The translations under genes were made by a program, and so were the position numbers. From Actinomycetota bacterium (lineage in GTDB: Bacteria; Actinomycetota; Thermoleophilia; Gaiellales; Gaiellaceae), in the NCBI GenBank assembly GCA_005888435.1, contig VAXO01000041.1, positions 1 to 46,350 on the forward strand: 46,350 nt of DNA, read 5' to 3'. Of this stretch, positions 33,793-44,975 are shown piece by piece; position 1 is the first letter of the stretch; the number at the start of each line of letters is the position of its first letter. Under the pieces are notes generated by a model, which made no database searches, was not told where the DNA came from, and saw only the letters and a list, made by a program, of their open reading frames with translations.

Positions 33793-34783
33793 GCGCCTCT
33801 TTCAACACCTCGCCGTCGAGCGCGTGGACCGTGCGGCCCTCACGCCCGGTCATCGTCTCCGCCGCGAGCATGGCATTGAGGATCGCCTCCTCCGTCGCCT
33901 CGATCACCGCAGCGTAGAAGGGCGTGATCTCGCCGTCGGAGAGCATTCGCAATGGGATCTCACCCCGTGCTGCGTCGAGGCCCCGGTTCGCCGTCGAGAA
34001 CGCGAAGAAGAGGTCACCGCTCGTGTGCGCGGCGGTGCCGCCGACACGCGCGACGCCCAGGCCGATCCGCTGCGCGAGCCGGTCGCACTGATGCGGTAGG
34101 AGCGGCGCGTCGGTCGCGGCGACGCCGATGATCGAGCCCCACTCCTCACGCGGCTGCGGTGTCGGTATCTGCTCGCCGAGCAGCTCGCCGACCGGTACTC
34201 CGTCGACGCGGAATCGGCTGCGGCGGCCGTAGTTCGCCTGCACGAGGACGCCGACGGTGTGGGCGCCCACGACCCGTGAAGACGTCCCGATGCCGCCCTT
34301 GAACTCGTGGCAGATCATTCCGGTCCCGCCGCCGACGTTGCCCTCGGCCACGGCCGCGGAGGCGTCGGCGAAGGCGGCCTCCACGTGCCGGGAAGTGAGG
34401 CGCTGGGCGCGGATGTCGTTGAGGAAGCCGTCGAATGTCTCGCCCACGACCGGCAGCGACCATGCGTCCTCATCTGAGGAGCGCGCCGCGATCGCGTCGC
34501 GGACGACGCCGACGCTGAAGGTGTTCGTGATGCCGATCGGCGTCGTGAGCAAGCCGGACTCGCGTACCCACTCGAGCCCGGTCAGCTCCCCGTTGCCGTT
34601 CAGCCGGTGGCAGCCGGCGAACAGAGGCGTCTCGGGCGGCACGATCACCGTCACGCCCGTGCGGACGTCTTCGCCCTCGATCAGCGTCGAGTGGCCGACC
34701 AGGACGCCGTCGACGTCGGTGATCGCGTTACGAGGGCCGGGCTCCCCGTCGCCGATCGGAATCTCCAGGTCGCGGGCACGCAC
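33779..34783 (-). CDS. P1-family (DmpA-like) aminopeptidase
   Basis: 334 residues. P1 peptidases are Ntn-type hydrolases activated by self-cleavage before a Ser or Thr; members release N-terminal D- or L-amino acids or beta-amino acids. Motifs: GPRNAITDVDGVLVGHSTL at the start, GVTVIVP, NGNGELTGLEWVRESGLL, GNVGGGTGMICHEFKGGIGTSSR, where the nucleophile is expected in GTSSR, and GVLVQANYGRRSRF. Cytoplasmic; no signal peptide. GTG 34783 follows TACGCT by six bases. Confidence 0.9.
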   Translation of the reverse strand: MRARDLEIPIGDGEPGPRNAITDVDGVLVGHSTLIEGEDVRTGVTVIVPPETPLFAGCHRLNGNGELTGLEWVRESGLLTTPIGITNTFSVGVVRDAIAARSSDEDAWSLPVVGETFDGFLNDIRAQRLTSRHVEAAFADASAAVAEGNVGGGTGMICHEFKGGIGTSSRVVGAHTVGVLVQANYGRRSRFRVDGVPVGELLGEQIPTPQPREEWGSIIGVAATDAPLLPHQCDRLAQRIGLGVARVGGTAAHTSGDLFFAFSTANRGLDAARGEIPLRMLSDGEITPFYAAVIEATEEAILNAMLAAETMTGREGRTVHALDGEVLKEALRRS

Positions 34784-34795
34784 GAGCGAAGCGTA
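34784..34795 (-). promoter_or_regulatory. Leaderless -10 element of the P1-peptidase gene
   Basis: TACGCT (34795-34790, minus strand), TCGCTC, GTG 34783. On the plus strand TATTAG/TAGGGT (34794-34802) overlaps it and may serve the divergent subtilase gene. Confidence 0.45.
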
Positions 34796-34852
34796 TTAGG
34801 GTTCGCCGACCCCTGGGCAAGGGGCTCGGGGGAGAACACAAGGGGGGAGTGC

Positions 34853-36484
34853 ATGCACGCTCGATTCAGGGTGCTGTGTCTGGCGCTCGCGACCGCCGCC
34901 GTCCTCATCGCCACCAGCTTGGCGACCGGGGCGAGCGGCGACAGCGGAGCCAACTACGTCATCCTCTACAAAGCCCAGTCCGTTCCGAGCGACGCCGCGA
35001 AGACAATCGCGAGTGCTGGTGGCACGCTCGTCTACAGCTACGACCAGATCGGGGTCGCGATTGCGAGGTCGAGCAACGCGTCCTTCCGCGACGACGTTAT
35101 GAAGGACAACCGCGTCGACGGGGCGTCGGCCACGACGAACTTCGCCTCGAAGCTTCCGGACGAGCAGGCGAGCGCCGACAGCTCCACCGGCGATCTACCG
35201 AACGCACCGGCTTCCGACTCGGACAGCCTGTCGCCACTCCAGTGGGACATGCAGCAGATCCACACGCCGCAGGCGCATGCCGTCACCGGCGGTAGTCCCG
35301 CCGTGCTGGCCGGCGACATCGACACGGGCATCGACTTCAACCATCCTGACCTGAAGCAGAACATCGACGTCGCCGACAGCGTCAACTGCCTCACCGGCGC
35401 TCCGGTGCCCGGAACAGCCGCGCAGGATGTCGACGGGCACGGTACCCACACCGCGGGGACGATCGCAGCGGCCGCAAACGGGATCGGCGTCGTGGGCGTC
35501 GCGCCCAACGTCAAGATCGCAGCGATCAAGTCCGGAAACGACGAAGGGTTCTTCTTCCCGGAGGCCGTCATCTGCGGCTTCGTGTGGGCGGGGACGCATC
35601 ACGTGGACGTGACGAACAACAGCTACTTCGCCGATCCGTATCTGTTCAACTGCCGCAACGATCCGGTCCAGCGGGCGATCTGGAAGGCGGAGAAGCGGGC
35701 GATCCAGTTCGCGATGGACGCAGGCGTCACGGTCGTCGCAGCCGAGGGGAACGAGAGCGACGACCTTTCGCATCCTCAGGTCGACCTGACCAGCCCGGAC
35801 AACACGACACCAGAGCAGCGTGACGTTACCAACGCGTGCGTCGTCATCCCCGTCGAGATCCCGGGGGTCGTTGGAGTGACCGCAACGGGTGACCGGCAGC
35901 AGGTCGACGGTGACAACGACGCGACCGACTATCTGAAGTCGTACTACTCGTCGTACGGCATCTCCACCGCGGACGTCACGGGGCCAGGCGGCGACTTCTA
36001 CTACGGCCGGTCGGCGCGCAGCGTCAACGGACTGGTCCTCTCGACGTATCCGGCGACCTCTCCGTGCACGCGAAGCGTGAAGGAGCCGACCGGAGACGTG
36101 ACGTACCCGACGGCGGTCTACTGCTACCTGCAGGGGACGTCGATGGCGTCGCCGCATGTTGCGGGCATCGCGGCGCTGATCATCAGCCGATTCGGGGACC
36201 TCAGCAATCCGAAGAACGGGAAGATGCGTCCGGGTGCGGTCGCCGCTCAGATTCAGCAGACGGCCGACCCGCAGCCGTGTCCGACAGAGTTGCCGCTGCA
36301 GGGCGCTCCCGGAAGCTCGCGGGCGAACGTCCCGTATGCGGCCACGACGCGGCCGAGCGGCGATCCCCAAGAGTGCCAGGGCGGTCCCGGCCACAACTCG
36401 TGGTACGGCAACGGACGCGCAGACGCGTTCAACGCCGTCATGAACATCTCCGGAAGCGCCGCAAACAACGAGCCTTCTCCGTAA
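34853..36484 (+). CDS. Secreted subtilisin-like serine protease (S8)
   Basis: 543 residues. Signal peptide at residues 1-27 (FRVLCLALATAAVLIATSLATGASG); an inhibitor-I9-like propeptide with ANYVILYKAQSVPSDAAKTI; then the catalytic domain with Asp in AGDIDTGIDFNHPDL (about 157), His in DGHGTHTAGTIAA (about 197) and Ser in LQGTSMASPHVAGIAAL (about 430). All three catalytic residues are present. The cysteines in the mature part suggest disulfides. ATG 34853 has GGGGGGAG upstream. It would degrade external protein; with the trypsin-like gene it gives the region an extracellular-proteolysis theme. Confidence 0.93.
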   Translation: MHARFRVLCLALATAAVLIATSLATGASGDSGANYVILYKAQSVPSDAAKTIASAGGTLVYSYDQIGVAIARSSNASFRDDVMKDNRVDGASATTNFASKLPDEQASADSSTGDLPNAPASDSDSLSPLQWDMQQIHTPQAHAVTGGSPAVLAGDIDTGIDFNHPDLKQNIDVADSVNCLTGAPVPGTAAQDVDGHGTHTAGTIAAAANGIGVVGVAPNVKIAAIKSGNDEGFFFPEAVICGFVWAGTHHVDVTNNSYFADPYLFNCRNDPVQRAIWKAEKRAIQFAMDAGVTVVAAEGNESDDLSHPQVDLTSPDNTTPEQRDVTNACVVIPVEIPGVVGVTATGDRQQVDGDNDATDYLKSYYSSYGISTADVTGPGGDFYYGRSARSVNGLVLSTYPATSPCTRSVKEPTGDVTYPTAVYCYLQGTSMASPHVAGIAALIISRFGDLSNPKNGKMRPGAVAAQIQQTADPQPCPTELPLQGAPGSSRANVPYAATTRPSGDPQECQGGPGHNSWYGNGRADAFNAVMNISGSAANNEPSP

Positions 36485-36538: not shown

Positions 36539-37870
36539 GTGGCCAGCACCGAGGAACGGCGCGAGCTCTGGGGGAAGGAGACGAACAAAGCGGTCGCAAA
36601 CTTCCCCGTCTCCGGCCAGCCGATCCCGCCCGTCGTCGCGCGCTGGCTCGGCCGCATCAAGGCGGCCGCGGCGCGCGTGAACGCCGAGCTCGGGCTGCTC
36701 GACGAGGACAAGGCGCAGCGCATCGCCGAGGCGGGCGACCGCATCGCCGCCGGCGAGCTCGACGACCAGTTCCCGATCGACGTCTTCCAGACGGGCTCGG
36801 GGACGTCGTCGAACATGAACGCGAACGAGGTGATAGCGGCGCTCGCAGGCGACGACGTGCATGCGAACGACGACGTGAACATGGGCCAGTCGTCGAACGA
36901 CGTGTTCCCGTCGGCGGTGCATCTCGCAGCGCTCGACGAGCTCACCAACGAGCTGCTGCCCGCGCTCGACAAGCTGGGCTCGTCGCTCCAGGCGAAGGCG
37001 ACGGAGTTCGACGACGTCGTCAAATCGGGACGTACGCACCTGATGGACGCCGTTCCGGTCACGCTAGGCCAGGAGTTCGGCGGCTACGCCGCGCAGGTAC
37101 GGCAAGGATCCGAGCGCGTCAAGGGCGTGCTCGGCCGGGTCGGCCAAATCCCGCTCGGCGGCACGGCCGTCGGGACGGGCCTCAATACGCACCCCGAGTT
37201 CGCCGAGCGCGTGCGGCGCCGGCTCTCGGAGGAGACGGGCCTGGCGATCTCCGCGCCTGCCGACCCGTTCGAGGCGCAAGCGGCGCGTGACGGGCTCGTC
37301 GAGGCGTCGGGCGCGCTGAAGACCCTCGCCGTCTCGCTGACGAAGATCGCCAACGACCTGCGCCTGATGGGCTCCGGCCCGCGTGCGGGGCTCGCCGAGA
37401 TCTTCCTGCCCGAGCTGCAGAAGGGCAGCTCGATCATGCCGGGGAAGGTGAACCCGGTCATCCCGGAGGTCGTGACGCAGGTCTCGGCGCAGGTGATCGG
37501 CAACGACGCGGCGATAACCGCCGGCGGCATGCAGGGGCACTTCGAGCTGAACGTGTTCGTGCCGCTGCTCGCGCGCAATCTCCTCGACTCGATCAAGCTG
37601 CTCTCTGCCGCATGCCGGCTCCTCGCCGAGAGCTGCGTCGACGGGATCGAGGCGAATCGTGAGGTGTGCGAGCGCTACGCGGAGCTGACGCTGTCGGCTG
37701 CGACAGCGCTCAACCCGTACATCGGCTACGACGCCGCGACAGAGATCGTCAAGGAAGCCGCCTCGAGCGGACGGTCCCTGCGCGAGGTCGCCCGGGAGCG
37801 TGGCGTCGCCGAGGACGTCCTCGACAAGGCGCTCGACTACCGGGCTATGGCCAAGCCGCACGCCTCCTAA
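36539..37870 (+). CDS. fumC: Class II fumarate hydratase
   Basis: 443 residues, cytoplasmic, interconverts fumarate and malate in the citric-acid cycle. Signatures: FQTGSGTSSNMNANEVIA, VNMGQSSNDVFPSA, KSGRTHLMDAVPVTLGQEF with the active-site His, and the superfamily signature GSSIMPGKVNPVIPE with the mobile-loop Ser. The N-terminus is about 20 residues shorter than the common RIERDTMGEV form, reading ELWGKETNKAVANFPVSG. Aspartase shares the fold, but the motif details favour fumarase. GTG 36539 follows TACACT by six bases. It is a housekeeping enzyme amid genes for exported proteins. Confidence 0.93.
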   Translation: MASTEERRELWGKETNKAVANFPVSGQPIPPVVARWLGRIKAAAARVNAELGLLDEDKAQRIAEAGDRIAAGELDDQFPIDVFQTGSGTSSNMNANEVIAALAGDDVHANDDVNMGQSSNDVFPSAVHLAALDELTNELLPALDKLGSSLQAKATEFDDVVKSGRTHLMDAVPVTLGQEFGGYAAQVRQGSERVKGVLGRVGQIPLGGTAVGTGLNTHPEFAERVRRRLSEETGLAISAPADPFEAQAARDGLVEASGALKTLAVSLTKIANDLRLMGSGPRAGLAEIFLPELQKGSSIMPGKVNPVIPEVVTQVSAQVIGNDAAITAGGMQGHFELNVFVPLLARNLLDSIKLLSAACRLLAESCVDGIEANREVCERYAELTLSAATALNPYIGYDAATEIVKEAASSGRSLREVARERGVAEDVLDKALDYRAMAKPHAS

Positions 37871-37884
37871 AAGAGGAACCTACA

Positions 37885-37914
37885 TTGACAACACGGCGCC
37901 GAGACGCCTAGATA
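37885..37914 (+). promoter_or_regulatory. Sigma-70-type promoter of the first large secreted protein
   Basis: TTGACA at 37885-37890 and TAGATA at 37909-37914, 18 bp apart. Expected transcript start is near 37921, giving a leader of about 55 bases with a GGGGGAG ribosome binding site. This differs from the leaderless pattern of neighbouring genes. Confidence 0.6.
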
Positions 37915-37975
37915 CCCGTTCACCGGGCGGCAACTGCGGCAGGGAGCCGCCTCAATCGACTCCATGGGGGAGAGA

Positions 37976-40063
37976 ATGCGACTCAGAGGGAGAACGAAGC
38001 TTGCGCTGCTTGCAGTGCTTGCGTTGGCCGTTGTCGCCTTGACGGCATCCGCCGGGACGGCAACCGGGGCCAGTGCGGCCAGCGCGGTGCCGCTTGCCGG
38101 GACGGGCAGTCCGCAGACGGGAGACTTCACGCCGTCGAGCGGTGAGGTCGCGGGCGACGAGTTCGCCGGCGAAGGCGAGGACGAGGACACCGGCCCTGAT
38201 CCGTACGGCGGCACGATCAGCCTCTCGGGTGGGGCGGGCCAGGGATCGTCCGTGAACAGTGGCAAGAAGGCGAAGTCGAATCCGACCTTCAACTTGGGCT
38301 TCGAGGGCCTGAACCACTACCAGCAGCGCTACGCGCGCGGAGGGAATCAGTTCTCCGTCGAGCCGCCGGACCAAGGCATGTGCGTCGGCAACGGCTACGT
38401 CGTCGAAGCCGTGAACGACGTCATGAACGTCTTCAGCGCCGCGACCGGGAATTCCGCGCTTCCGGACAACACCGCGACCAACATCGTCAGCGGCTTCCCG
38501 CGCAACGTGAACCACGCTGTCGACCTGAACTCGTTCTACGGCTATCCGGCCGCAGTGAATCGGACAACGGGAGTACGCGGACAATTCGTCACGGATCCCA
38601 GTTGTCTGTACGACGCTGCGACGCAGCGCTTCTTCGTCGTCGTGCTGACGCTCGAAGTCGTGCCGACGAGCGGTGCCTTTACGAGGGTGAACCATCTCGA
38701 CATCGCCGTCAGCCAGACGTCGAACCCGACGGGTAGCTGGAACATCTATCGCGTCGACGTGACGAACGACGGGACGAACACCGGCGGCGCGAATCCGGGC
38801 CCGTTCCTCGGCGACTACCCGCACATCGGTGCAGATGCGAATGGCTTCTACATCACGACGAATGCCTATCCCTGGTGCTGCAACGGCTTCAGTGGGGCGC
38901 AGATCTACGCGTTTTCGAAGGCGCAGCTGGCCGCTGGGGCGGCCACAGTCGCCATGCAGCACATCGATACATCGGGCATGGTCAATGCCCCGAGCGAGGC
39001 CGGTTCGACGCAGCCGGGCTTCACGGTCTGGCCGGCTCAGTCGCCGGGGACTACGTCGTTCGACCTGAACGCGGGCGGCACCGAGTACCTGCTCAGCTCG
39101 AACGCGGGGGATGAGGCGCAGAAGCCCGTTTCCGGCAACGCCGGAACGCGGACGTCGAACCAGCTGATCGTGTGGGCGCTGACGAACACTGCGTCACTCA
39201 ACACGGTGCCGGCGCTCAGCCTGAGCAACAAGATCCTCACGGTGGGGCAGTACGGCGTCCCGCCGAAGCAGCAGCAGCCCGGCTCCGGCACGGCCCCGAC
39301 GACGACTGTTCCTCAGGGCTTCTGTCTGAACGACTCGACGACGGTGACCATCGCCGGCACCGGGTGTTGGAGGCTGCTCGTCAACGCGACCATGCATGCT
39401 GCAGGCCCGGAGGTCGTCGCGAGTCCCGACTCGAACGACACCCGCATGCAGCAGGTCATGTACGCAAACGGCAAGCTCTGGGGTGCACTCGACACGGCGG
39501 TCAACCCGGACGCTGGGCCACAGCGTGCCGGTATCGGCTGGTACATCGTGAAGCCCGACGTCTCGACCGGTTCACTCGCTGCGAAGGTCGCACTGTCGGG
39601 TTACCTCGGCGCTACGGGCTACGACTTCACGTACCCCGCCATCGGCGTGACGCCGAGCGGCCGCGGCGTGATGGCGTTCACAGCCACGGGTAACTCGTTG
39701 AACCCGAGTGCTGGCTATGCATCGATCGACGCTCAGGCCGGCGTCGGGGAATGGAACGTCGTCCCTGGTGGCACCGGAGCGGCTGCCGACGATGGCTTCT
39801 CCGGGTACAAGCAGCAGCGCTTCCCGGCAGGGATCCGATCCCGTTGGGGCGACTACGGCGCAGCCGCTGTGGACGGCAACTCGGTCTGGATCGCCAGCGA
39901 GTACATCTCGGCGGCGTGCAACTACACGGACTGGGGCGGCCCGTTCTTCGCGGGCGGGTCGGGCGACAACCTGCTCGGTACCTGTGGCGGTGCGAGTCAC
40001 GGTCCGGGTCACCGGACTGCGCTGGCCAACTGGTCGACGCGCATCAGCAAGTTCACGCCGTAA
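37976..40063 (+). CDS. Large secreted protein A, paralogue of the gene at 40628
   Basis: 695 residues. Signal peptide MRLRGRTKLALLAVLALAVVA...SAGTATGA, a disordered acidic linker (about 45-90), then a body rich in beta-strand. Segments shared with its paralogue: PPDQGMC, VVEAVND, DPSC-YD, FFVVVLTLE, GDYPHIGAD-GFYITTN, WPA--PGT, SND-RMQQV-YANGK-WGALDT, AGI-W-IVKPD, RWGDYG-A and IWIASE. Aspartate/Gly-rich repeats suggest a propeller-like fold. I do not recognise a named family. ATG 37976 has GGGGGAG six bases upstream. It is followed by a terminator and a small secreted gene. Confidence 0.85.
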   Translation: MRLRGRTKLALLAVLALAVVALTASAGTATGASAASAVPLAGTGSPQTGDFTPSSGEVAGDEFAGEGEDEDTGPDPYGGTISLSGGAGQGSSVNSGKKAKSNPTFNLGFEGLNHYQQRYARGGNQFSVEPPDQGMCVGNGYVVEAVNDVMNVFSAATGNSALPDNTATNIVSGFPRNVNHAVDLNSFYGYPAAVNRTTGVRGQFVTDPSCLYDAATQRFFVVVLTLEVVPTSGAFTRVNHLDIAVSQTSNPTGSWNIYRVDVTNDGTNTGGANPGPFLGDYPHIGADANGFYITTNAYPWCCNGFSGAQIYAFSKAQLAAGAATVAMQHIDTSGMVNAPSEAGSTQPGFTVWPAQSPGTTSFDLNAGGTEYLLSSNAGDEAQKPVSGNAGTRTSNQLIVWALTNTASLNTVPALSLSNKILTVGQYGVPPKQQQPGSGTAPTTTVPQGFCLNDSTTVTIAGTGCWRLLVNATMHAAGPEVVASPDSNDTRMQQVMYANGKLWGALDTAVNPDAGPQRAGIGWYIVKPDVSTGSLAAKVALSGYLGATGYDFTYPAIGVTPSGRGVMAFTATGNSLNPSAGYASIDAQAGVGEWNVVPGGTGAAADDGFSGYKQQRFPAGIRSRWGDYGAAAVDGNSVWIASEYISAACNYTDWGGPFFAGGSGDNLLGTCGGASHGPGHRTALANWSTRISKFTP

Positions 40064-40086
40064 GGCGGATCAGCGACTGAACGACG

Positions 40087-40120
40087 AGAGAGGGCCGGCC
40101 GCAAGCCGGCCCTCTCTTTT
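40087..40120 (+). terminator. Rho-independent-type terminator after secreted protein A
   Basis: A perfect 13-bp stem AGAGAGGGCCGGC/GCCGGCCCTCTCT with loop CGCAA, followed by TTT. The best terminator in the window. Confidence 0.8.
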
Positions 40121-40140
40121 GCATCTACTCTTGGATGTCC

Positions 40141-40506
40141 ATGCGTTCGGCAATCGTGGTTGCGAGCATGGCGCTGGTCTTGGCGGCCGGTGCGCAGGCC
40201 ACGACGCCTCGCGGGGCGCTGACCGGGATCGTGACCCGTGGGCCGATTACCCCGGTGTGCGCGCTGGAGCAGCCCTGCGACGAGCCGGCCCCAAACGTGA
40301 CGCTGCTCTTCACGCGGAACGACACGGTTCTCGGGCGGGCCGTCACCGATCAGAACGGCCGTTACCGCATCCGACTTCCCGTAGGTGCATACCGCGTTCG
40401 CCGCCCTTCGGCGACCGCACCTGACCGGAAGCTCGACCCGAATCGAATTCGCGTCTACGCGGCGCGCACCCGTGTCGATTTCTCCATCGACACAGGCATT
40501 CGGTAG
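40141..40506 (+). CDS. Small secreted single-domain protein A'
   Basis: 121 residues: signal peptide MRSAIVVASMALVLAAGAQA, then one beta-sandwich-like domain resembling carboxypeptidase-regulatory (CarboxypepD_reg/SdrD-B) repeats: LTGIVTRGPITPVC, PCDEPAPNVTLLFTR, AVTDQNGRYRIRLPVGAYRVR and ending VDFSIDTGIR. Two cysteines (TPVC, QPC) may form a disulfide. ATG 40135, two codons upstream, is also possible; TACTCT at 40126-40131 is a candidate -10. It is a paralogue of the gene at 42731, and both follow a large paralogous secreted gene. Confidence 0.75.
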   Translation: MRSAIVVASMALVLAAGAQATTPRGALTGIVTRGPITPVCALEQPCDEPAPNVTLLFTRNDTVLGRAVTDQNGRYRIRLPVGAYRVRRPSATAPDRKLDPNRIRVYAARTRVDFSIDTGIR

Positions 40507-40531
40507 CCACCGCGGTCCCTCGTAGCGCTCC

Positions 40532-40561
40532 CTGGACGGTCGAGAGAGGTCCGGATATCTT
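40532..40561 (+). promoter_or_regulatory. Possible promoter of secreted protein B
   Basis: CTGGAC (40532-40537), 18 bp, TATCTT (40556-40561). A hairpin GGGCTCGC/GCGAGCCC (40578-40605) would lie in the leader, upstream of the ribosome binding site. Weak match; uncertain. Confidence 0.3.
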
Positions 40562-40627
40562 GGGCGCCAACGGAAGTGGGCTCGCTGGGGGATCTAGGCG
40601 AGCCCCGGGTCTAAAGAAGGGGAGAGA

Positions 40628-42655
40628 ATGCGTTTGAATCGCCTTTGGAAAGCGGTGCTTGCCCTGTCGCTGCTTGCGGCCGCCGCCTCGACGCTCGTGA
40701 GCGTCGCGGGTGCGTCCCAGCTCCAGTCGTCAGCAACCTCCGCTTTGCCCGAGAGCAACGTGCTCGATCCGCTCAGCCAGCGCGGCGAGGAGGCGCCGGC
40801 GAATCGGAGCAACTCAGAGCTACACGGCAAGAGCAAGAAGCACAACGGCGTCGCAACGCCGGCCGTGAGTCCCACGGTCGTGGCGTCAACGTCGAATGCA
40901 GTCAGCGGGCAGAGCTTCGAGGGCCTGAGCATGTGGGACCAGCGCACGCTCAACGGCTTCTACCTCGAACCGCCCGACCAGGGCATGTGCGCCAGCACCG
41001 ACGCGACAGTCGGCGCCGGCGGGCGTGTGGTCGAAGCGGTGAATGACGTGTTCGCCGTCTACAACACGGGGGGCACGACACTCAAGGAACAGACGCTCAA
41101 CCAGTTCTTCGGGTATCCCGCCCTGCTCGCGGGTGGACCGGAGCTCACCGATCCGAGCTGCTACTACGACTCGGAGACGCACGCATGGTTCGTCGTCGTC
41201 CTCACGCTCGAGCTCGACCCGAGGACCGGCAACTTCACGGGTGCGAACCACATCGACATCAACGTCAGCAATCCGGGCAACCACGACCCGAGCACGACGA
41301 CGTGGAAGCGGTACACGATCGACACGACCGACAACGGGAACAGCGGGTCGCCGAACCATCATTGCGCGCCGGATCCCAACCCGAGGCCGGGCGAGACGAT
41401 GCCCGACGCGTGCATCGGCGACTACCCGCACATCGGGGCCGACCACTACGGCTTCTACATCACGACGAACGAGTACCCGTTCTTCACGGACGGGTTCAAC
41501 AGCGCGCAGATCTACGCGCTGTCGAAGCACAAGCTCGCGGCGAACCAGTCGTCCGTGCCGTGGGTGCAGTTCGCCAACACGAAGCTCGCGAACGAGAAGC
41601 GCGGCCCGGTCGGCTTCACGATCTGGCCCGCCGAGGTTCCGGGCACGGCGTACGACGAGGACAACAACGGGACGGAGTTCTTCTTGAGCTCCGACGCCGC
41701 CGAGGAATCCGGCAACGTGACGGGCTCGTCCGACACGATCGGGCTCTGGGCGATCACGAACTCGAAGTCGCTCGACAGTGACCATCCGGACCTGAACCTC
41801 AGCAGCCGGGCCCTGTCGTCCGAGGCATACGGCGTTCCGCCGCACTCGGCCCAGCCGAGCACCGGGACGCAGGATCCGACACAGAACTGGCCGCTCGGCC
41901 AGTGCCTCAACATCGACGCCTGCTTCGTGAACTTCCTGTCCGCGCCGGGCGAGACCGCCGACCCGTACAAGCCGGAGGTCATCGGCGAGCTGGACAGCAA
42001 CGACAGCCGGATGCAGCAGGTGTACTACGCGAACGGCAAGGTCTGGGGCGCCCTCGACACGCGCATGACCGTCGGAGGGAACGAGCAGGCCGGCATCGCG
42101 TGGTTCATCGTCAAGCCGGACATGATCGGTCCGGGCGGGGGCGGCAAGGTCGGACCGCAGTCCGCCGTCGTCAACCAGGGCTATCTCGGTGTGGCCAACG
42201 GAAACGTCACGTATCCGGCGCTCGCCGTCACCTCGGCGGGGCAGGGCGCGATGGCATTTACGCTCGTCGGCCCAACGACATATCCGAGCGCAGCCGACAT
42301 CCTGTTCGGCAACTCGGGCCCGACCGGTTCGGTCTTCCAGACGGCTCCGGGCCTCGGCCTGCAGGACGGGTTCAGCGAGTACAAGTACTACTCGCCGTTC
42401 GCACCCGGCCCCAACGGCGAGGCTCCACCTCCGCGACCGCGCTGGGGTGACTACGGCTCGGCCGACGAGGACAACGGCACGATCTGGATCGCCTCTGAGG
42501 AGATCCACAACAACTGCAGCCTCGCCCAGTGGTCTGCAACGGTCGGGCACTGCGGGCCGCAAGCCGACCGCAGTCCTGTGCCTGGTGTGGGCCAGCCGGA
42601 GGCACGGCGCTTGCTCGGCAACTGGAACACGCACATCGCGCGCATCGCTCCCTAG
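40628..42655 (+). CDS. Large secreted protein B, paralogue of the gene at 37976
   Basis: 675 residues. Signal peptide MRLNRLWKAVLALSLLAAAA...VAGA, then a linker and the same body as protein A: FEGLSMWDQRTLNGFYLEPP, MCASTDATVGAGGRVVEAVN, FFGYPALLAGGPELTDPSC, WFVVVLTLELDP, CIGDYPHIGADHYGFYITTN, SNDSRMQQVYYANGKVWGAL, PRWGDYGSADEDNGTIWIAS. It has a Pro-rich loop and extra cysteines near the C-terminus that A lacks, so the copies have diverged. Strong ribosome binding site GGGGAGAG. Function unknown; exported, probably beta-rich. Confidence 0.85.
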   Translation: MRLNRLWKAVLALSLLAAAASTLVSVAGASQLQSSATSALPESNVLDPLSQRGEEAPANRSNSELHGKSKKHNGVATPAVSPTVVASTSNAVSGQSFEGLSMWDQRTLNGFYLEPPDQGMCASTDATVGAGGRVVEAVNDVFAVYNTGGTTLKEQTLNQFFGYPALLAGGPELTDPSCYYDSETHAWFVVVLTLELDPRTGNFTGANHIDINVSNPGNHDPSTTTWKRYTIDTTDNGNSGSPNHHCAPDPNPRPGETMPDACIGDYPHIGADHYGFYITTNEYPFFTDGFNSAQIYALSKHKLAANQSSVPWVQFANTKLANEKRGPVGFTIWPAEVPGTAYDEDNNGTEFFLSSDAAEESGNVTGSSDTIGLWAITNSKSLDSDHPDLNLSSRALSSEAYGVPPHSAQPSTGTQDPTQNWPLGQCLNIDACFVNFLSAPGETADPYKPEVIGELDSNDSRMQQVYYANGKVWGALDTRMTVGGNEQAGIAWFIVKPDMIGPGGGGKVGPQSAVVNQGYLGVANGNVTYPALAVTSAGQGAMAFTLVGPTTYPSAADILFGNSGPTGSVFQTAPGLGLQDGFSEYKYYSPFAPGPNGEAPPPRPRWGDYGSADEDNGTIWIASEEIHNNCSLAQWSATVGHCGPQADRSPVPGVGQPEARRLLGNWNTHIARIAP

Positions 42656-42679
42656 GCGAACAGGAGCATTGCGTCAGTG

Positions 42680-42708
42680 GAGAGGCCGGCCCGCTGGGCC
42701 GGCCTCTC
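42680..42708 (+). terminator. Hairpin after secreted protein B
   Basis: GAGAGGCCGGCCC/GGGCCGGCCTCTC, a perfect 13-bp stem with loop GCT. It resembles the terminator after protein A, consistent with duplication of the whole cassette. Confidence 0.7.
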
Positions 42709-42718
42709 GCTTCGGGGC

Positions 42719-42730
42719 TACACTCTCGCC
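42719..42730 (+). promoter_or_regulatory. Leaderless -10 element of small secreted protein B'
   Basis: TACACT (42719-42724), CTCGCC, GTG 42731. Confidence 0.55.
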
Positions 42731-43114
42731 GTGGTCGCGCGTCCCCAGGTCTGGGGCGGCGTCCTTGCCGCCTGTGTCCTCGCCGCCGGAAGCGGAACTG
42801 CCGCCGGCGGGACGCGTTCGGCCGTCCTTCACGGGACCGTTTTGCTGGCGCCGGCGACCCCGGTGTGCATGCCTCGCATCCCGTGTATGCGTCCGGCTCC
42901 AGGAGTCGTGCTGGCGTTCTCGCGGGGCGGCCTCGTCCGCGGGCGCGTTACGACAGGCGCGGACGGGAGCTACCGCGTGGCGCTCGCCCCAGGTGCCTAC
43001 AGCGTCCGCGTGGCCCGACCGGCTGGTGTTCGGCGGCTGACCCCTTCGAGCGTGACGGCGGCCGGCGGCCAGGTGAGGCGGGTGACCTTTTACCTGGACA
43101 CCGGCATCCGCTGA
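42731..43114 (+). CDS. Small secreted single-domain protein B'
   Basis: 127 residues with a signal peptide (VVARPQVWGGVLAACVLAAG...TAAGG) and one beta-sandwich-like domain: LHGTVLLAPATPVCMPRIPC, PAPGVVLAFSRGGLVRGRVT, GADGSYRVALAPGAYSVRVA, ending RRVTFYLDTGIR. The TPVC...PC...PAP block and DTGIR ending are shared with the gene at 40141. GTG 42731 is chosen for the -10 spacing and signal-peptide fit over the GTG at 42677, which would place the terminator hairpin in the coding region. Confidence 0.75.
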   Translation: MVARPQVWGGVLAACVLAAGSGTAAGGTRSAVLHGTVLLAPATPVCMPRIPCMRPAPGVVLAFSRGGLVRGRVTTGADGSYRVALAPGAYSVRVARPAGVRRLTPSSVTAAGGQVRRVTFYLDTGIR

Positions 43115-43177
43115 TTGCCTCTAGGCGTTCCTAGATCTCTCAAGTAGCCCCCCGCGCCTGCCGATTCCGCGGTAACT

Positions 43178-44044
43178 GTGCGAAGACTCGTGACCATGCT
43201 CGCGGTCGCCACCGCGGCCCTGGCGCTCCTGTGCCCTTCGGCAGGCGCAGTCCAGGGCGGAACGCCGGACGGAAACGGCCATCCCAACGTCGGCCTGTCC
43301 GTCTTCCTGTACCACGGCATTCCGCTGTGGCGGTGCACGGGCACGATGGTGGCCGCGAAGGTCTATCTGACCGCAGGCCATTGCACCGGCATCGACACCG
43401 ATCTCGGCGTCGCCCCTGACAGCGCGCAGGTCTGGTTCACCTCAGGCGCGATCCCGCGCGGCACGCATGGCTTCGACGGGACTCCGTGCAAGCCGACCGA
43501 TACCGGCTATCCGTGCAAGGGCGAGTTCAGCGGCACGCCGGTGCCGCATCCAGGCTGGAACGGCTTCCTGACGCAGCCCAACACGCACGACATTGGTGTC
43601 GTCCAGCTAACCCAGGCGCCGAATGTCGGCCTTTCCAAGGTCGCGCCGGCCGGCTACCTCGACACCCTCGCCACCCAGCGTGGCCGGCAGGACGTCGATT
43701 TCACGATCGTGGGGTACGGCGTGCAGTTCGAGAGCCCGAACCTCGAGGTTGCGTTGCGGCAGCGGTTCGTCGGCACGAACCAGCTGCAAAACCTCCGCAG
43801 TCACCTCGCCGGCGGCTTCAACCTGATCATGAGCGACTCGGCCGGCAACGGGACCGGGGGTAGCGGGACGTGCTTCGGCGATTCCGGCGGCCCGGTCTTC
43901 CACACCGACAGCGACGGCCAGGTCTGGCAGGTCGCGGTCATCTCGTACGGAACGAAGTACTGCCACGGCAGCTCCGCCGCCTTCCGCCTCGACAACGCCC
44001 AGGCTCGCGCGTTCCTCTCGAGCCAGGGCGTGCCGCTGAACTAG
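43178..44044 (+). CDS. Secreted trypsin-like serine protease (S1)
   Basis: 288 residues. Signal peptide MRRLVTMLAVATAALALLCPSAGA; the mature protein starts VQGGTPDGNGHPNVGLS, like the activated N-terminus of chymotrypsin-fold proteases. Catalytic His in YLTAGHC (about 68), Asp in THDIGVVQL (about 137), Ser in CFGDSGGPVF (about 235); all present. Several cysteines can pair. GTG 43178 gives the positively charged n-region of the signal peptide; internal ATG 43196 would lose it. It is transcribed after the secreted cassettes and converges on lipA. Confidence 0.92.
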   Translation: MRRLVTMLAVATAALALLCPSAGAVQGGTPDGNGHPNVGLSVFLYHGIPLWRCTGTMVAAKVYLTAGHCTGIDTDLGVAPDSAQVWFTSGAIPRGTHGFDGTPCKPTDTGYPCKGEFSGTPVPHPGWNGFLTQPNTHDIGVVQLTQAPNVGLSKVAPAGYLDTLATQRGRQDVDFTIVGYGVQFESPNLEVALRQRFVGTNQLQNLRSHLAGGFNLIMSDSAGNGTGGSGTCFGDSGGPVFHTDSDGQVWQVAVISYGTKYCHGSSAAFRLDNAQARAFLSSQGVPLN

Positions 44045-44054
44045 GGCGGGTCGC

Positions 44055-44975
44055 TCAGTACGCGACTGCGCCGCGGCCCTCGGCCGCGGCGTGGCGCTGC
44101 TCGTCGGCGCGGTACGACGAGCGCACCAGCGGTCCCGAGAAGACCGAGCCGAAGCCGAGCGCCTCGCCCTGCTCCCGGAACCAGCGGAACTCGTCGGGAT
44201 GCACCCACCGGTCGATCTGCGCGTGCCTCGGGCTCGGCTGCAGGTACTGGCCGATCGTGACGACGTCGACGCCGTGTGCGCGCAGGTCCCGCATCGTCTC
44301 GACGACCTCGTCGTTCGTCTCGCCCAGGCCGACGATGATCCCGGACTTCGTCAACACCGGATAGTCGGCGATCTCCTTCGCGCGCTGCAACAACCAGAGC
44401 GCCTTGTCATAGCTCGCCTTGGCGCCGCGCATGCGCGCGTGTAGCCGCCGTACGGTCTCGATGTTGTGGTTGAACACCTCGGGGCGTGCCGCCAGCACGG
44501 TCTGCAGTGCCTCCTCCTCGACGTCGAGGAAGTCCGGCGTCAGCACCTCCACCGACGCGTGCGGGAGCTTCGCCTTCAACGCGCGGATCGTCGCCGCGTA
44601 GTGGCCCGCGCCGCGGTCGGGAACGTCGTCGCGGTCGACAGACGTGACGACGACGTGCTCGAGCTCCATCTGCGCGGCCGCGTTCGCCAGCCGCAGGGGT
44701 TCGAGCGGGTCGGGCGGGCGGTCAGGCTTGCCGCTGTGCACGTAGCAGTAGCGGCACGCGCGAGTGCACGTGTCGCCGAGGATCTGGAACGTGGCTGTGC
44801 CGCGGCCCCAGCACTCGGAGATGTTCGGGCAGCGGGCCTCCTCGCAGATGGTGTGCAGGCTCGCTCCGTGGATCAGCTTCTTCACGTCGAAGTAGCGAGA
44901 GTCGGCGCGCGGCGCGCGCACCTTCATCCACTCGGGACGGCGCGGGCGCTCCGCAACGGGAAGCGAGCTTTCCAT
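44055..44975 (-). CDS. lipA: Lipoyl synthase
   Basis: 306 residues. A radical-SAM enzyme that inserts two sulfurs into protein-bound octanoyl groups. Auxiliary-cluster cysteines 44, 49 and 55 in TICEEARCPNISECW; radical-SAM cluster cysteines 70, 74 and 77 in DTCTRACRYCYV; the final RSSY with its Ser ligand is present. Length is normal. ATG 44975 follows TAGACT by seven bases. A GC palindrome (CCGCGGCC/GGCCGCGG) in the last codons could terminate the convergent protease gene. Confidence 0.96.
   Translation of the reverse strand: MESSLPVAERPRRPEWMKVRAPRADSRYFDVKKLIHGASLHTICEEARCPNISECWGRGTATFQILGDTCTRACRYCYVHSGKPDRPPDPLEPLRLANAAAQMELEHVVVTSVDRDDVPDRGAGHYAATIRALKAKLPHASVEVLTPDFLDVEEEALQTVLAARPEVFNHNIETVRRLHARMRGAKASYDKALWLLQRAKEIADYPVLTKSGIIVGLGETNDEVVETMRDLRAHGVDVVTIGQYLQPSPRHAQIDRWVHPDEFRWFREQGEALGFGSVFSGPLVRSSYRADEQRHAAAEGRGAVAY

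Follow-up and report, generated by a model that had tools for sequence, protein, structure and literature searches.

A facultative pairing of two exported-protein genes at a fumC-lipA hotspot in an actinobacterial family

The window, by which we mean the whole stretch of 46,350 nucleotides analysed here, carries two successive units (37976-40506 and 40628-43114), each with a gene for a large protein, a hairpin and a gene for a small protein. Such a layout raises the question of whether one cassette was duplicated in tandem and whether its two products act together, as an earlier note on this DNA had claimed. The elements listed in that note are all in the sequence: the reading frames, a 13-bp GGCCGG-type hairpin between the large and the small gene of each unit, and a DTGIR C-terminus on both small proteins. 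Both members are paralogous between units, the large proteins (large1 and large2) with 40% identity over 639 columns (E 6e-120) and the small ones (small1 and small2) with 44% identity over 98 columns (E 1e-21). By eye, all four proteins have an N-terminus that looks like a Sec-type signal peptide, in line with the exported character proposed for them, and a motif search of the four found no LPXTG sorting motif. The large proteins have indeed no named family, since profile searches against Pfam and NCBIfam gave no match for either of them up to E 1. We lean towards the explanation that a facultative exoprotein pair is present here in two copies of independent derivation, lying in a hotspot between fumC and lipA, with the small protein as a detached accessory of the hotspot exoproteins. 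The locus adds a new and genuine, if modest, case of turnover among secreted proteins in a soil actinobacterium; it is not a new kind of system. Its features are collected in Table 1.

Table 1. Features of the fumC-lipA region of the window.
Feature	Position	Strand	Remarks
fumC (class II fumarate hydratase), left hotspot anchor	36539..37870	+	Named from ORF sequence; same left-end gene in 50 family genomes
large1, exported protein, predicted seven-bladed propeller, 695 aa, Shine-Dalgarno-type start	37976..40063	+	Fold taken from the large2-core model
13-bp hairpin then T-rich tract, probable intrinsic terminator of large1	40087..40117	+	
TACTCT, -10-like box, probable leaderless promoter of small1	40126..40131	+	9 nt to ATG 40141, 3 nt to ATG 40135
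small1, exported protein, predicted transthyretin-like (CarboxypepD_reg-like), C-terminus DTGIR	40135..40506	+	PF13620 E 2.9e-6, below cut-off
large2, exported protein, predicted seven-bladed propeller, 675 aa, subfamily other than that of large1	40628..42655	+	Model; tree and AU test
13-bp hairpin then CGCTTC, probable large2 terminator, weak T tract	42680..42708	+	
TACACT, -10-like box, probable leaderless promoter of small2	42719..42724	+	6 nt to GTG 42731
small2, exported protein, predicted transthyretin-like (CarboxypepD_reg), C-terminus DTGIR	42731..43114	+	PF13620 34.1 bits
Exported trypsin-like protease, further cargo of the fumC-lipA interval	43178..44044	+	PF00089 E 7.6e-11; also in the interval of L137 and L139
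lipA (lipoyl synthase), right hotspot anchor, convergent with fumC	44055..44975	-	Match 44097-44951

Regarding the signals around the genes, large1 starts at ATG 37976, with GGGGGAGAG upstream and a second in-frame ATG at 37964. The likely start of small1 is ATG 40141 (the more likely one) or ATG 40135, and that of small2 is GTG 42731. Both hairpins have perfect arms and folding z-scores of -6.8 (first) and -3.6 (second), and they are the only two sites of the form GGCCGGC-loop-GCCGGCC in the 46 kb window, where 0.01 would be expected. Behind the first hairpin comes a T-rich tract, and TACTCT and the small1 start lie only a few bases further on. A similar hairpin stands in the matching position in L137, L139 and L028, and in the first two, from the same genus as the window, the succession of hairpin, TACCAT, 8 nt and ATG is the counterpart of the unit 1 arrangement. 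Boxes of the TANNNT type are a mark of leaderless genes, and such genes are frequent among Actinobacteria (PMC3160421). Among the homologues, such a box at leaderless spacing is found at 24 of 50 small genes, versus 3% in shuffles, while the large genes have a Shine-Dalgarno-type start in 31 of 37 cases and a leaderless-type box in a single one. Judging from these signals, the likeliest role of the hairpin is that of a terminator for the large gene. The second one received no call from the terminator scan, and its probable role at the end of large2 rests on its position and on its similarity to the first. Genes of a co-transcribed operon would have no terminator or promoter between them, and here a hairpin with a T tract and a TANNNT box lie in between, signals that leave room for read-through. 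The large and the small gene of each unit are thus probably separate transcription units, so that at the transcript level the pair does not look like the single cassette that had been proposed.

Nor is the tandem duplication of the cassette supported. In the tree, large1 is the sister of a homologue with 84% identity (L032), inside an eight-member clade that includes Chloroflexota, while large2 is at most 50% identical to any homologue found. Holding large1 and large2 together as sisters was rejected by the AU test (p-AU 3.3e-114). The same constraint on small1 and small2 gave a p of 0.59, and small1 groups with small genes adjoining large1-clade genes. Besides, unit 2 is absent from the fumC-lipA loci of two genomes of the same genus, whose gene orders are fumC, large1-type, small1-type, trypsin, a second small-like stretch and lipA (G079), and large1-type, small1-type, trypsin and lipA (G187). 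With the large pair rejected as sisters and unit 2 missing there, the idea that both genes were recently copied in tandem as a unit finds no support; unit 2 was either gained in the lineage of the window or lost in the others. Direct repeats on either side of unit 2 would point to an insertion, but the repeat list gave nothing convincing of this kind. The second small-like gene of G079 (L137:8490-8854), between the trypsin-like gene and lipA, is split over two frames, possibly as a decayed copy or through a sequencing error.

The small proteins can be placed in a known domain family. Small2 matches PF13620 (CarboxypepD_reg) with 34.1 bits, above the curated cut-off of 32.3, and small1 does so with 28.0 bits (E 2.9e-6), under that cut-off. 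The model of the small protein (pLDDT 82) is a transthyretin-like beta sandwich, and this prediction superimposes on the transthyretin-like domain of carboxypeptidase D (5aq0) with a Z of 9.8 and an rmsd of 2.2 over 79 residues. The small protein is hence predicted to be a free-standing transthyretin-like (CarboxypepD_reg) domain, with a profile match and a predicted sandwich fold in common with PF13620, the carboxypeptidase D domain and the CnaB/SdrD B-type domains. It differs from known CarboxypepD_reg domains in being free-standing, exported and about 120 aa long, in its conserved DTGIR C-terminus (TGIR being the last four residues in 37 of 55 small homologues) and two conserved cysteines, and in being nearly restricted to one actinobacterial family: at E 1e-8, its profile matches 46 of 103 genomes of that family versus 2 of 26 other genomes of the order. 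With a pN/pS of 0.36 relative to its closest homologue, in L139, small1 is under purifying selection.

To see the locus in its chromosomal setting, we used the 50 genomes with fumC and lipA on one fetched stretch, which are family kin and not independent. The two anchors are convergent and the gap between them ranges from 20 to 10,918 bp (37871-44054 in the window). The interval is nearly empty in about ten of the 50 genomes, and elsewhere it holds varying sets of propellers, subtilases, pro-kumamolisin-type proteins, trypsin-like proteases and small genes; BNR_2 is carried by other cargo of the interval. By a simple hydrophobicity rule, 70 of the 93 genes inside the interval (75%) are exported, versus 38 of 284 (13%) outside (Fisher p 1.8e-28, an optimistic value given the kinship of the genomes). 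Across the family, genes for exported proteins are thus concentrated between fumC and lipA, and the interval is a hotspot for them. It supplies a list of candidate exoenzymes, and reading what lies between fumC and lipA is a simple way to compare how relatives deal with their surroundings. We found nothing on this hotspot in the literature searched. In the window, the trypsin-like protease has TAGHC, HDIG and GDSGGP motifs and, by eye, an apparently intact catalytic triad. An exported subtilase is encoded at 34607-36484, just 5' of fumC, which suggests that the exoprotein cluster may reach past the interval.

The pairing of large and small genes was surveyed in 103 family genomes. At a threshold of E 1e-3, the small profile finds a match in 54 of them; for the large profile, at E 1e-10, the number is 36. 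These figures take in weak relatives. A small gene lies within 600 bp of 13 of the 20 strong, assessable large genes of the family (tallied from tables), mostly downstream on the same strand, with two convergent cases and one upstream of a truncated large copy; the other seven have no adjoining small gene. In that upstream case (G153, L141:6058-7626), the large gene directly 3' of the small one is truncated at its N-terminus, and this hints at recombination at the unit. Five further small genes are divergent from weaker propeller relatives, with a gap of about 410-430 bp. Within the hotspot, the small gene is present in 6 of 7 large-bearing intervals versus 7 of 43 others (Fisher p 0.0007), or versus 7 of 22 when only cargo-bearing intervals are compared (p 0.026), both p values being optimistic because the genomes are related. 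The distance matrices of large and small proteins in 11 pairs correlate (r 0.56, p 0.003) by a Mantel test that ignores species kinship and in which one clade drives much of the signal.

Checking the large homologues for partners gave a split answer to the claim that the preserved pairing means joint action. Within the family most have a small partner and the pairing recurs far above chance, but none of about 16 homologues outside it has a small neighbour, and an obligate partnership is not supported. The closest homologue of large1 (L032/L146, 84% identical) is also without a small gene. Conversely, small genes that lack an adjoining large gene number at least 23, with 16 of them near lipA and seven between a comEA-like gene and leuS (names assigned by eye); the latter, in L108, L113, L116, L119, L123, L129 and L135, share this second conserved location and have no propeller gene there. 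Other neighbours of the small gene are subtilases, pro-kumamolisin proteins and other propellers. According to these counts, the large-small pairing is real, recurrent, facultative and lineage-limited.

Single polypeptides that join similar parts are also found. L212 encodes an exported protein of 1626 aa with a WGDY-motif propeller, three CarboxypepD_reg domains, kelch repeats and malectin. Its propeller is weakly related to the large protein and precedes the CarboxypepD_reg part in the same order as in the gene pair. L216 has a C-terminal array similar to that of L212, where the profile matches the CarboxypepD_reg part alone. Unlike the pair, the L212 and L216 proteins are one polypeptide with extra domains and only distant similarity to the four proteins of the window (P0001-P0004). 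In a related genome, L214 has a CarboxypepD_reg and malectin part C-terminal to a subtilase. In this lineage, CarboxypepD_reg domains accompany both propellers and proteases among the exported proteins and act as their common accessories. The small protein fits in as a detached form of such a domain, and it offers a case, open to testing, of an accessory domain that is fused elsewhere and is here a protein of its own. The fusion is weak evidence for a link between large and small, because CarboxypepD_reg fuses with many enzymes, that subtilase included; its presence on varied exported proteins limits how specific the link can be.

Taken as a mechanism, the explanation that we prefer would run as follows. 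Exported proteases and propellers would come and go at fumC-lipA in the course of the family's evolution. The large protein, presumably exported by its Sec-type signal and predicted to fold as a seven-bladed propeller, would most likely bind, and perhaps cleave, an extracellular polymer or surface ligand. The small protein, probably transcribed separately and exported, would be a transthyretin-like domain that most likely serves hotspot exoproteins, most often the propeller, as a detached docking, stabilising or adhesion accessory. Paralogy, predicted folds, recurrent adjacency, the hotspot and the terminator- and promoter-like signals were computed, whereas we infer export, ligand binding and an accessory action on the large protein. 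A direct putative partnership of the two proteins is plausible.

One could argue that there is no functional link, both genes being frequent residents of the hotspot whose adjacency comes from shared location and local inheritance. This is a serious competitor, if a less probable one: the small gene accompanies many other types of interval cargo, large genes without it are common, the transcription signals are separate, and the association weakens once hotspot cargo is controlled for. Against it, divergent pairs occur outside a confirmed fumC-lipA interval (L102, L103, L111, L114 and L122), fusions of propellers with CarboxypepD_reg exist, and nearly all large-bearing intervals hold a small gene. 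We think it rather unlikely that an undescribed propeller family (EPPDQ/RWGDYG) and its lineage-specific transthyretin-like partner form a two-component extracellular binding or degrading machine, traded as a unit at the hotspot. That the large and the small protein make up an obligate system and a dedicated complex, with their genes copied in tandem as a unit, is improbable. The paralogy of both members, the adjacency within the family and the grouping of small1 with partners of large1-clade genes agree with it, but it conflicts with the rejection of large1 and large2 as sisters (the large1 clade reaching into Chloroflexota), the lack of unit 2 at same-genus loci, the many members of either family that stand alone, and the terminator and promoter signals between the genes.

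As for the fold of the large protein, sequence profiles gave no convincing relative among solved structures, and PADLOC yielded nothing. We built an AlphaFold2 model of the large2 core from 31 homologues (pLDDT 82, pTM 0.88). Foldseek ranked sialidases at the top, with a poor superposition, and realignment with VIA gave YncE and the CylK propeller at Z 23.6 and PLL lectins at about Z 20. On YncE, the predicted model aligns with 302 of 321 YncE residues at an rmsd of 3.4. The large protein is hence predicted to be a seven-bladed beta-propeller over most of its length. It would share this fold with YncE, PLL lectins and the CylK C-terminal propeller (Z about 19-24), from which it differs by an identity of only ~10% and by conserved motifs of its own (EPPDQ, GDYPHIGAD and RWGDYG); PPDQ and RWGDY are invariant across the homologues. 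A reading of the large protein as a glycoside hydrolase of the sialidase type, with the small one as its carbohydrate-binding module in trans, is very improbable, as in spite of the Foldseek ranking and the BNR_2 in other hotspot cargo, the Asp box (SxDxGxxW) was found in none of the 31 homologues by motif search, no BNR family profile of Pfam or NCBIfam matches the two large proteins (P0001/P0002), and the best VIA matches are seven-bladed propellers and not six-bladed sialidases.

Large1 is under purifying selection (pN/pS 0.26 relative to its closest homologue, in L032). This propeller family is absent from the literature searched, and both the family and the hotspot appear to be undescribed there. 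The locus defines an unnamed exported propeller family, by its predicted fold, and a specific chromosomal site of secreted-enzyme swapping in uncultured soil bacteria. The large family occurs in soil Actinobacteria, Chloroflexota, Acidobacteria and one archaeal bin. The archaeal member is a distant homologue on a 176 kb contig of a Thermoplasmata bin (L040:4539-6761), and points to either inter-domain transfer or misbinning.
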